Assembly (NCBI RefSeq): GCF_900215485.1
Contig: NZ_OCMZ01000001.1
Span: 806,001-870,000 of the forward strand
Direction of reading: 5' to 3'
DNA length: 64,000 bases
Origin: Nitrosovibrio sp. Nv4
GTDB lineage: Bacteria; Pseudomonadota; Gammaproteobacteria; Burkholderiales; Nitrosomonadaceae
Shown: positions 22,442 to 24,843 of the stretch, in pieces
How the letters are laid out: every line of letters begins with the position of its first letter
Numbering within the stretch: position 1 is the stretch's first letter
Made by a program: the position numbers and the translations under genes
The notes under the pieces: model-generated
Databases searched by the model: none
The model's input: only the letters and a program-made list of their open reading frames with translations
What the model was told of the DNA's origin: nothing

Positions 22442-22666
22442 ATGTCTAGAAAGAAATCCATCATATCCATAGCAGTTGGTTCCGCTTTTGCCGTCACGCT
22501 CGGCGCCGTGCCCGTTGCTTCAGCGAATTACAACCCTTTTGGCATGCAACTGCTCGACAAGGGCTATATGATGAGCGACGCCCATCAATATAGCGACAAG
22601 AAAGACGGCGAAGGCAAATGCGGCGAGGGAAAGTGCGGCGAAGGCAAGTGCGGTAATGGTAAATAG
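22442..22666 (+). CDS. HvfA-like precursor peptide (RiPP metallophore/bufferin), EGKCG repeats
   Basis: A 74-residue protein with a Sec-type signal (KKSIISIAVGSAFAVTLG, likely cut near ASA) and a short mature part ending in three EGKCG units at residues 57-71. This matches the HvfA/bufferin type: secreted small proteins whose Cys residues are changed by an MNIO (DUF692) enzyme, giving copper-binding groups. The MNIO and DUF2063 genes follow after a second paralogue. The three 15-base DNA units (22610-22654) share register but differ at third positions, so they are kept by protein-level selection or are old. Name by similarity; the modification here is inference. Confidence 0.85.
   Translation: MSRKKSIISIAVGSAFAVTLGAVPVASANYNPFGMQLLDKGYMMSDAHQYSDKKDGEGKCGEGKCGEGKCGNGK
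22610..22654 (+). repeat. Three 15-base coding repeats (EGKCG)
   Basis: Units at 22610, 22625 and 22640 each encode Glu-Gly-Lys-Cys-Gly. Codons differ between units (GAA/GAG, GGC/GGA, AAA/AAG), so this is not a recent copy-paste. Confidence 0.9.
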
Positions 22667-22835
22667 CTAAAAAATTACCTGCCGTGGGCAAGGCATCTGG
22701 TAGCTGCCGCCCATTGTAAGTAAAGTCAAGAAAGCGGGAACAGCTTCCATTGCATGGAGTCTCCTTGCGGAAGCCGGTGCCTGCTCTTCTCAAATTGTGA
22801 CATAATATTTCGTCCAAAATTTAGGAGACGATACT

Positions 22836-23243
22836 ATGCGCAACAAAAAAACCATGATTTCCCTGGCGGTTGGCTCCGCCTTTGCCGCTACGCTCAGTGC
22901 TGTACCCCTCGCCTCGACGGCTAGCCCTTTTGAAATTCAATCCTTGGATAAGGGATACGTCCTGGCTTATGCGGATAAGGTGGACCCCAATAAATACGGT
23001 GGAGCGAAATCCGGCGAAGCGAAATCTGGCGAAGGTAGATGCGGCATGTCGATGGTAGACGTCAACAAGGATGGCAAGGTCACCAAGGAAGAATTTCTCA
23101 AGCATCACGAAGCGATATTCGACAGAATAGACGCCAATAAGGATGGCGCTGTCGATCAACCTGAAGCCGACAGCTATGGGGGGACCAAACCTGGGCCCAG
23201 CTCAGCGCCGTCTACAGCGCCACATGGCGGGATGAAGAAGTAA
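22836..23243 (+). CDS. HvfA-like paralogue with EF-hand pair
   Basis: A 135-residue protein. Its first ~50 residues closely match those of the gene just upstream (KKTMISLAVGSAFAATL signal, then SLDKGYVLAYADK), so the two arose by duplication. Where the first has three EGKCG units, this one has GAKSG, EAKSG and EGRCG in the same 15-base register (23001-23045): two Cys have become Ser and a single Cys remains. After this come two EF-hand loops, DVNKDGKVTKEEF and DANKDGAVDQPE, with canonical Asp/Asn/Asp spacing, and a Pro/Ser/Gly tail. It is likely exported and may bind calcium or another metal. TTAGGAGACG is a good ribosome binding site. Confidence 0.85.
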   Translation: MRNKKTMISLAVGSAFAATLSAVPLASTASPFEIQSLDKGYVLAYADKVDPNKYGGAKSGEAKSGEGRCGMSMVDVNKDGKVTKEEFLKHHEAIFDRIDANKDGAVDQPEADSYGGTKPGPSSAPSTAPHGGMKK

Positions 23244-23255
23244 CATCTGTTTACC

Positions 23256-24107
23256 ATGAAAGCCTTGGATTTGGCCAGTGTGGGACTGGGTTTTCGGCGC
23301 GAGTTAATTCCAGCGTTAAAAGCCCATGTTCCCGATGCCATCGATTTCTTCGAAATCGCCCCGGAAAACTGGATTGATCTCGGCGGTGTGGCCGGACGTG
23401 ATTTGCGCAACTTCACTGAGCGCTTCCCGTTCGTCTGCCATGGTCTTTCGTTATCCATCGGTAGTCCGGCGCCATTGGATGAGGTGTTACTGCAAAAGAT
23501 TCGACAATTCCTGGATCAGCATCACATCCTCTTTTATACCGAGCATCTTTCCTACTGCTCGGACGACGGACATCTATACGATCTCCTTCCAATACCGTTC
23601 ACTGAAGAAGCAGTGAGCTATGTTGCTGCCCGCGTTCGTCGCGCTCAGGATATTCTGGAGCGCCGCATCGCGCTGGAAAACGCTTCGTTTTACTTGCGTG
23701 CACCCATCACGGAAATGAGCGAAGCGGACTTTATCCGTGCTGTATTGACCGAGGCGGATTGCGATCTGCATCTCGACATCAATAACGTCTACGTCAATAG
23801 CATAAATCATGACTATGATCCGATAGAGTTCATCCGCGCCATGCCCACCGAACGCATTGTTTACATGCATATGGCCGGCCACCACAATGAAGCGGATAAT
23901 ATCATCATTGATACGCACGGTGCGGACGTGATCGACCCGGTATGGTCATTGCTCGATCAAACGTATTGCATTCACGGCGTGACGCCTACGCTGCTGGAAC
24001 GTGACTTCAATATCCCTCCCCTGCAAGAGCTGATGCGTGAAGTCGAACGCATTGGCATGGTCCAGACTCGGCATGCCGATGCAAGCCATGTCCGCGCCGC
24101 TTCCTGA
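23256..24107 (+). CDS. MNIO-family (DUF692) peptide-modifying enzyme, HvfB/BufB-like
   Basis: A 283-residue TIM-barrel protein of the multinuclear non-haem iron oxidase family. Metal-ligand segments typical of the family are present in order: FFEIAPENW, CHGLSLSIG, FYTEHLSY, ALENASFY, LHLDINNVYVNS, YMHMAGHH and DTHGADV. Known members turn Cys in small precursor proteins into oxazolone/thioamide or thiooxazole groups that bind copper. The gene starts 12 bases after the EF-hand paralogue and overlaps the DUF2063 gene, so the four genes form one unit. The precursor-like proteins just upstream are the obvious substrates. Confidence 0.92.
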   Translation: MKALDLASVGLGFRRELIPALKAHVPDAIDFFEIAPENWIDLGGVAGRDLRNFTERFPFVCHGLSLSIGSPAPLDEVLLQKIRQFLDQHHILFYTEHLSYCSDDGHLYDLLPIPFTEEAVSYVAARVRRAQDILERRIALENASFYLRAPITEMSEADFIRAVLTEADCDLHLDINNVYVNSINHDYDPIEFIRAMPTERIVYMHMAGHHNEADNIIIDTHGADVIDPVWSLLDQTYCIHGVTPTLLERDFNIPPLQELMREVERIGMVQTRHADASHVRAAS

Positions 24108-24843
24108 GTTTCAGCGTTTCCAGTACGCTTTCACCGCGCATATCCGCGACGCCAAGGCGAACCCTTGTCCACGCGGCATTGAAGCGCGGCGTATGCGGAT
24201 ATACAGGAGGCTGGTTTACAATAACCTTGAGAGTTTTCTTCTGGCTTGTTTTCCCGTACTAAGAAAGGTGCTGGGGGCACGCCGATGGGAACGGCTCGTG
24301 CGCGGGTTCCTCGCCACACATCACAGCCGCTCTCCTTTTTTTCGCCAAATTCCGGATGAGTTTGTCCAATTCCTGCAGAGCGATGGGACTATACCTGCGA
24401 ATTATCCGGAATTCGTGCTGGAACTCGCGCACTACGAATGGGTAGAGCTCGCGCTTTCTGTTTCAGCGGACACTCCCGCCTGGGAGGCGATCGATCCGGA
24501 AGGCAACTTGCTGGAACAGCGTCCGGTTTTAAATCCGGTGCTTGCCAACCTGCGGTATAACTGGCCTGTACATCGCATTGGTCCGCGCGTTCGAGTCACC
24601 CCAGCAGAAACCTGCTTGCTGGTATTCCGTAATTCCAGCGACCAGGTTCGCTTTACTGAAATCAATGCGTTTACCTCGCGTCTGATAGATCTTCTTGCGC
24701 CTGCCGAGCAAACGGGTCGAGCGGCGCTTGAAATCGTCGCTGCTGAAAGCCGCCATCCCTCGCCCGGAATGGTGATTCAGGGAGGGCTGGAAATCATGCG
24801 CGATTTGCAAGTGCGTGGTGCATTGCTGGGCGTTTCTAAATAG
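24088..24843 (+). CDS. DUF2063 partner protein, HvfC/BufC-like
   Basis: About 251 residues. The N-terminal half is the DUF2063 domain (LPEFQRFQYAFTAHI, then RMRIYRRLVYNNLESFLLACFPVLRKVLG), and the rest is the usual C-terminal domain of these proteins. It is thought to bring the precursor peptide to the MNIO enzyme. Starts at 24073, 24079 and 24088 are all in frame within the end of the MNIO gene; 24088 gives the family-like MSAPLPEFQ, but none has a clear ribosome binding site. The overlap with the MNIO gene indicates coupling. Confidence 0.88.
   Translation: MSAPLPEFQRFQYAFTAHIRDAKANPCPRGIEARRMRIYRRLVYNNLESFLLACFPVLRKVLGARRWERLVRGFLATHHSRSPFFRQIPDEFVQFLQSDGTIPANYPEFVLELAHYEWVELALSVSADTPAWEAIDPEGNLLEQRPVLNPVLANLRYNWPVHRIGPRVRVTPAETCLLVFRNSSDQVRFTEINAFTSRLIDLLAPAEQTGRAALEIVAAESRHPSPGMVIQGGLEIMRDLQVRGALLGVSK

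Follow-up and report, generated by a model that had tools for sequence, protein, structure and literature searches.

The window, a stretch of 64,000 nucleotides from Nitrosovibrio sp. Nv4 (contig NZ_OCMZ01000001.1, positions 806,001 to 870,000 of the forward strand), carries at positions 22442-24843, after a divergent dksA, the genes for two small precursors (A1 and A2), an HvfB-type MNIO enzyme and its HvfC/DUF2063 partner, in that order and all on the + strand. An earlier note on this DNA had placed two small exported paralogues ahead of an MNIO enzyme and a DUF2063 protein here, and its coordinates and gene order were borne out. It had overlooked that A2, the subject of the present analysis, is an EF-hand protein with one mature Cys.

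A1 (22442..22666) is an open reading frame for an EGKCG precursor of 74 amino acids with three KCG motifs and no EF-hand. A2 (22836..23243) is an open reading frame of 135 amino acids which adjoins HvfB. Both are predicted to be exported, the signal peptides having been judged by eye from the sequence. The N-terminus of A2 is paralogous to A1 in a sequence alignment, where the A2 segments GGAKS-GEAKS-GEGRC align with the GEGKC repeats of A1. The lone Cys of A2, Cys69 (TGC codon, 23040..23042), stands within EGRCGMS, six residues ahead of the first of two canonical EF-hands (PF13202/PF00036; PF13202 match 39.5 bits). EF-hand loop 1, DVNKDGKVTKEE (23058..23093), lies inside the confidently modelled part of the protein, and loop 2, DANKDGAVDQPE (23130..23165), which has Asp at position 9, follows 12 residues past loop 1. 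The nearest named relative of A2 is from Nitrosovibrio sp. Nv6 (95% identical), in a search which may omit the window's own record.

The HvfB-type MNIO (23256..24107) passes the NF003818 equivalog (431.1 bits, cut-off 360) and matches PF05114 (348 bits), the sole such match in the whole assembly. Its relative in the PDB is 3BWW (E 6.6e-79). Across 69 aligned rows, in which the window's HvfB figures twice, the invariant residues include H62, H97, E141, N176, N177, H205, H209, D219, H221 and E248, and the metal-ligand-type set expected of the family (NN, DTH, His/Glu) is present; the ligand residues were matched by eye, via the 3BWW alignment, to HvfB N175/D242/H244 as given in the available part of PMC13419390. 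The HvfC/DUF2063 partner (24079..24843, with an alternative GTG start at 24037) passes NF050145 (277.4 bits, cut-off 142), also carries PF09836 and PF22106, and has the PDB relative 3DEE (E 9.5e-19). The filing of the locus under HvfA/HvfB/HvfC is supported by these two equivalog matches and by A1, which passes the KCG-repeat domain NF050137 (23.1 bits, cut-off 19.5), though it fails the HvfA equivalog NF050188 (14.3 bits, cut-off 95); A2 reaches the cut-off of neither precursor model. The alternative label, bufferin, found no match in the strict DUF2282 sense (PF10048) in any of the 23 genomes of the genus, the window's included. DoxX, a frequent member of such clusters, is absent among the genes of the locus, and the single PF07681 match of the assembly sits on another contig.

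The genus set comprised 23 Nitrosospira/Nitrosovibrio genomes, and the locus was read in all of them. HvfB was found in 23/23, and A2 adjoins it in 22, the exception being G113. Each of these 22 A2 proteins carries a pair of EF-hands and a single mature Cys, with the motif E-G-[R/K/N]-C-G, in which the E-G and G-M-S context around the last Cys is invariant. Eleven genomes have A1 at the locus. Eight of these A1 are Cys-rich EF-hand chimaeras with 4-6 Cys (L032, L034, L038, L041, L042, L047, L051 and L052), and three, those of the window, G095 and G111, are pure EGKCG peptides. The EF-hand-free A1 still keep a KCG-type tail and look like the product of an in-frame deletion between KCG repeats. 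A third paralogue, A3, occurs away from the HvfB locus in 23/23 genomes; it keeps EG[RK]CG ahead of EF1 and has a single mature Cys in 19. It is an orphan exported EF-hand paralogue, as at L102:2954-3538 (profile match G000:C3:1604513-1604899), with counterparts in L103-L125. The A3 of G115 has one additional Cys outside the motif, G108 and G109 hold an additional A3-like copy without Cys or EF-hands, and the profile search of the genus found an extra orphan 3-Cys chimaera in G096. The claim that two precursors are served by one enzyme fits, A3 being a third candidate, but the two at the locus differ in kind: A1 is Cys-rich and occurs in only some genomes, whereas A2, an EF-hand protein with a single Cys, is conserved next to HvfB.

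Among the 12 genus genomes without A1, no precursor with two such Cys sites was found in 11, the exception being G107. The four Nitrosospira multiformis genomes read (G098, G099, G101 and G102) are all without A1. NF050137 has no match in nine of these genomes and only sub-cutoff matches in G110 and G115; in G107 it scores 20.0 bits, on that genome's own A2.

The position of the Cys relative to the EF-hands is fixed. In every two-loop Cys protein scored (A1 chimaeras, the 22 A2, A3, and chimaeras of the sister genus g4 and of group g3; the main A3 of G108 and G109 were outside both this set and the tree described below), the last Cys upstream of EF1 precedes the first Asp of loop 1 by six residues, a spacing that all 22 genus A2 share. 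The linker ahead of the Cys varies in length. Adjacent EF loops are separated by 12 residues; the four-loop A3 of G104, which contains the Cys-EF module twice, has a middle gap of 20. The structure run took as input the window's A2 and 30 of 42 named loci. The AlphaFold model of A2 is confident for residues ~71-115 and poor for most of the remainder (mean pLDDT 57.8), which places Cys69 at the border of the confident part.

A comparison is offered by g2, a genus of the Nitrosomonadaceae represented by eight uncultured genomes of 1.0-2.0 Mb (72-99% complete, three of eight below 90%). HvfB was not found in any of the eight, and in six neither an MNIO nor a DUF2063 gene was found. The other two (G002 and G003, loci L063 and L064) have a different MNIO-DUF2063 pair; the MNIO of G002 is BufB by NCBIfam (340 bits, cut-off 310), and that of G003 shares 32% identity with the window's HvfB. 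An A2 orthologue is present in seven of the eight genomes. In all seven, Tyr replaces the Cys that is present in 22/22 genus A2; the Glu of E-G-x-C is gone in six and its Gly in one. The leader-like PF...L...GY segment is eroded in most of them, while AYAD is retained in 7/7. The EF region has a median omega of 0.088 in g2 A2 and 0.057 in genus A2, and the g2 EF-hands are under purifying selection. Pairs with undefined dS (synonymous divergence), or with dS outside 0.05-3, were dropped, which for the EF region left 111 of 231 genus pairs (median dS 1.3) and 9 of 21 g2 pairs.

In a tree of 68 rows, built from precursors with at least two EF-like matches, six g2 A2 and the 22 genus A2 fall on the same side of a branch supported at 100/99. 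The midpoint root serves for drawing only; of the G104 A3 only the first 120 residues were used, the g2 genome G005 was omitted, and the rows of g3 (six) and g4 (four) were hand-picked. One g2 genome, G004, has two HvfC remnants directly behind A2, corresponding to HvfC amino acids 101-133 (E 4e-4) and 209-252 (E 3e-7), and no HvfB there. L213, perhaps from the same genome, has the same arrangement. The A2 of G004 retains most of the leader segment, as would be expected if the loss in G004 is the most recent.

These data are best explained if A2, HvfB and HvfC form the core unit of the locus, in which HvfB/HvfC would make one 5-thiooxazole at the lone Cys of A2, beside the EF-hand pair; this reading is probable, though well short of certain. 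It builds on the gene order, the families of the proteins, the invariant Cys and its spacing, the absence of that Cys from a clade lacking HvfB and HvfC, and the selection on the EF-hands. Loss of the Cys in relatives without HvfB suggests that HvfB modifies that one site. In the proposed mechanism, the chemistry of which is taken from the family, HvfC would present A2 to HvfB, and HvfB would oxidise Cys69 to a single 5-thiooxazole. Exported A2 would then hold one soft-metal site, probably for Cu(I), fixed beside a two-EF-hand module that may bind Ca2+. Physiologically, A2 would resemble a chaperone or sensor with one site rather than a copper sponge with many; the latter part may fall to A1 in the genomes that have it. 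A1 would accordingly be an optional additional substrate of the enzyme and A3 a third, unlinked one.

Several observations weigh against this assignment. G113 has HvfB without A2, and A3 retains the motif without linkage to HvfB. Motif position 3 is Asn in 5/22 genus A2, a change not found in the available text on FonB (PMC12668002). The A3 of G107 holds two sites, and the count of precursors covers A1/A2/A3 kin and the NF050137 and DUF2282 models; other precursor families, and eight weak profile matches in the genus to the EF part only (E 1e-10 to 1e-3), lie outside it. Outside the genus, L237 (Methylophilaceae) has HvfB near an EF-hand open reading frame without Cys as parsed, which aligns with A2 across 48 residues only. 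A Cys also persists in two genomes in which no MNIO was found. G021 (99% complete; no DUF2063 found either) keeps GEGKCG in a one-Cys chimaera, so that either the Cys can persist after the enzyme is lost or the G021 locus is unassembled; G017 (80% complete, with one DUF2063 match below cut-off) retains a Cys within an A3-like protein whose motif is eroded. Finally, the loss of the Cys together with HvfB may be a single event, as it is seen in one g2 clade and always as Tyr.

The strongest rival explanation is that HvfB and HvfC act on multi-Cys precursors only, and that A2 is left unmodified, its Cys being structural or part of a disulphide-linked dimer. According to the part of PMC12668002 that was available, FonBC modified a two-repeat peptide and not a one-repeat peptide, which counts for this rival and against modification of A2. 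So does the score of the window's A2, which with its one Cys stays below the NF050137 KCG-repeat cut-off (15.0 versus 19.5 bits); the window's A3 is unmatched by that model, and the EF-hands persist without HvfB. However, 11 of the 23 genomes keep HvfB although no two-site precursor was found in them, A2 itself adjoins HvfB in 22 of 23, and where HvfB is missing the Cys is missing too while the EF-hands are not. The multi-Cys restriction is considered rather doubtful.

Unlikely as well is a second rival, in which the Tyr of g2 is unrelated to HvfB and has hitch-hiked on general gene loss in small-genome uncultured lineages. The single clade, the single type of substitution, the genome sizes of 1.0-2.0 Mb and the three of eight genomes below 90% completeness are in its favour. 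Against it stands the pattern of what was kept: besides the missing HvfB, HvfC and Cys motif, the leader is eroded in most genomes, whereas the EF-hands and AYAD are retained; in G004, where remnants of HvfC survive, the leader segment is largely retained as well. That A2 is a decaying former precursor drifting towards an ordinary EF-hand protein, its last Cys a relic, is very improbable, for although KSG stands in A2 where A1 has KCG in the aligned repeats, related chimaeras carry 2-6 Cys and the g2 A2 lack this Cys, the Cys and its context are invariant in 22/22 genus A2 at a median dS of 1.3, and the Cys-EF1 distance, which should vary for a relic, is fixed.

The unit of A2, HvfB and HvfC can be set beside four published accounts, each available in part. 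EGKCG/EF-hand chimaeras, tandem precursors, MNIO-unlinked precursors and one-Cys candidates have already been published in general terms, as have unclassified precursors, open reading frames with 1 to 18 Cys ahead of MNIO genes (PMC12452194). A2 shares with the Buf_EGKC|EF-hand chimaeras of that work an exported EGKCG-type N-terminus and two EF-hand_5 motifs, and the window shares with their loci the adjoining MNIO and DUF2063 genes. By its description, rather than by the authors' profile, A2 belongs among them: a short EGKC region, two EF-hands and an MNIO neighbour. It differs from the chimaeras as there described in having one fixed Cys throughout a lineage, a loss series that ties this Cys to the MNIO, and the A2 element treated below; the main text of PMC12452194 has no occurrence of 'nitros'.

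The chemistry of HvfB and FonB is known (PMC12668002, PMC13419390). With the captophorin systems HvfABC/oxazolin and FonABC/fontiphorin the window has in common the HvfB/HvfC equivalogs, the EGKCG motif and the expected 5-thiooxazole; as far as the available parts of these two papers go, HvfA has six modifiable sites and FonA seven, whereas A2 has one, together with two EF-hands. FonB accepts Arg at position 3 and requires Gly or Ala after the Cys (PMC12668002, in part), and the EGRCG of A2, with Arg at position 3 and Gly after the Cys, fits that tolerance. A2 resembles lanmodulin in being small and exported and in its EF-hands 12 residues apart (12-13 in lanmodulin, ~25 in usual Ca2+ EF-hand proteins; PMC10232371, available part). 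Unlike lanmodulin it has two EF-hands, not four, and no Pro at loop position 2, and it scores far under the lanmodulin cut-off NF053806 (25.5 versus 135 bits). Within the literature searched, three points are new: that in a genus HvfB has as its core partner an EF-hand protein with one fixed Cys, the Cys-less A2 with an HvfC remnant in an HvfB-less clade, and the single-copy A2 element.

This 14-bp element, TGTGACATAATATT, lies ahead of A2 at 22796..22809 on the + strand and contains, by eye, an extended -10-like TGaCATAAT. It is identical and present once per genome before A2 in 22/23 genus genomes, as column conservation also showed, and ends 24-35 bp upstream of the A2 start as placed by script. 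It is missing in G113, the genome without A2, and a reversed-pattern control gave 0/23. A regulon defined by the element was considered and rejected, the element being single-copy before A2. In g4, nine of the 13 precursor genes read have the element in the same place with at most three mismatches. It was not seen before eight g3 chimaera genes (4-6 mismatches) or seven g2 A2 genes (4-6). A degenerate form, TGTGACRTAAYATT, matches at 32 sites, spread over 29 of 125 genomes, against six sites for the reversed control; five of the sites are in g4 (two of them in G121), three in g3 and none in the eight g2 genomes. Extra sites in G000, within a permease-like open reading frame, and in G107, between two open reading frames, are treated as chance. 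Loss of the element along with HvfB was likewise rejected, the g3 mismatches being no better than those of g2 though most g3 genomes have HvfB. That g2 lacks the element accordingly adds nothing independent in favour of coupling, and the element is counted as marking A2 within the genus, together with nine of 13 g4 genes.

Beyond the family, the EF-hand chimaeras at five HvfB-near loci (records of Hydrogenophilales, Thiobacillaceae, Thiobacillus, Thiotrichaceae and Thiothrix) carry 4-5 Cys, and the single-Cys state of A2 was probably derived by reduction. About 27 of the 97 MNIO-bearing genomes of the family, all g3, lie outside the locus-level reading. The g3 genome G046 has two HvfB copies: that of L070 (G046:C5), which is preceded by an EF-hand chimaera with 3 Cys, shares 79% identity with the window's HvfB and may stem from horizontal transfer of a Nitrosospira-type unit, and that of L021 is 62% identical. 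A second, divergent MNIO-like domain lies in a 497-amino acid frame at L054 (G095:C10:513159-513794; BufB 124 bits, under cut-off). Genomes of g3, with and without MNIO, also encode a distinct family of exported, His-rich EF-hand proteins in which a Cys precedes KMSxVD (L137, L142, L158, L163-L165, L229 and L231).

Periplasmic copper handling in ammonia oxidisers is an open field. A wider and only tentative interpretation is that the Nitrosospira MNIO has been re-tooled from many-site sponges, one thiooxazole beside two EF-hands giving a dual-metal periplasmic sensor or copper chaperone. One metal would be Cu and the other Ca or a different EF-hand ion, in a host whose energy metabolism is copper-dependent; the EF module would replace the second repeat of FonBC substrates, and the A2 element would provide dedicated control. 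The genus and its relatives amount to a natural experiment on MNIO substrates, the Cys being invariant with HvfB present and, in the clade without HvfB, gone from a protein still under selection. If the single site is modified, it would break the FonBC-based expectation of two repeats and provide a minimal substrate for work on mechanism, and it would tie thiooxazole chemistry to an EF-hand protein of ammonia oxidisers.

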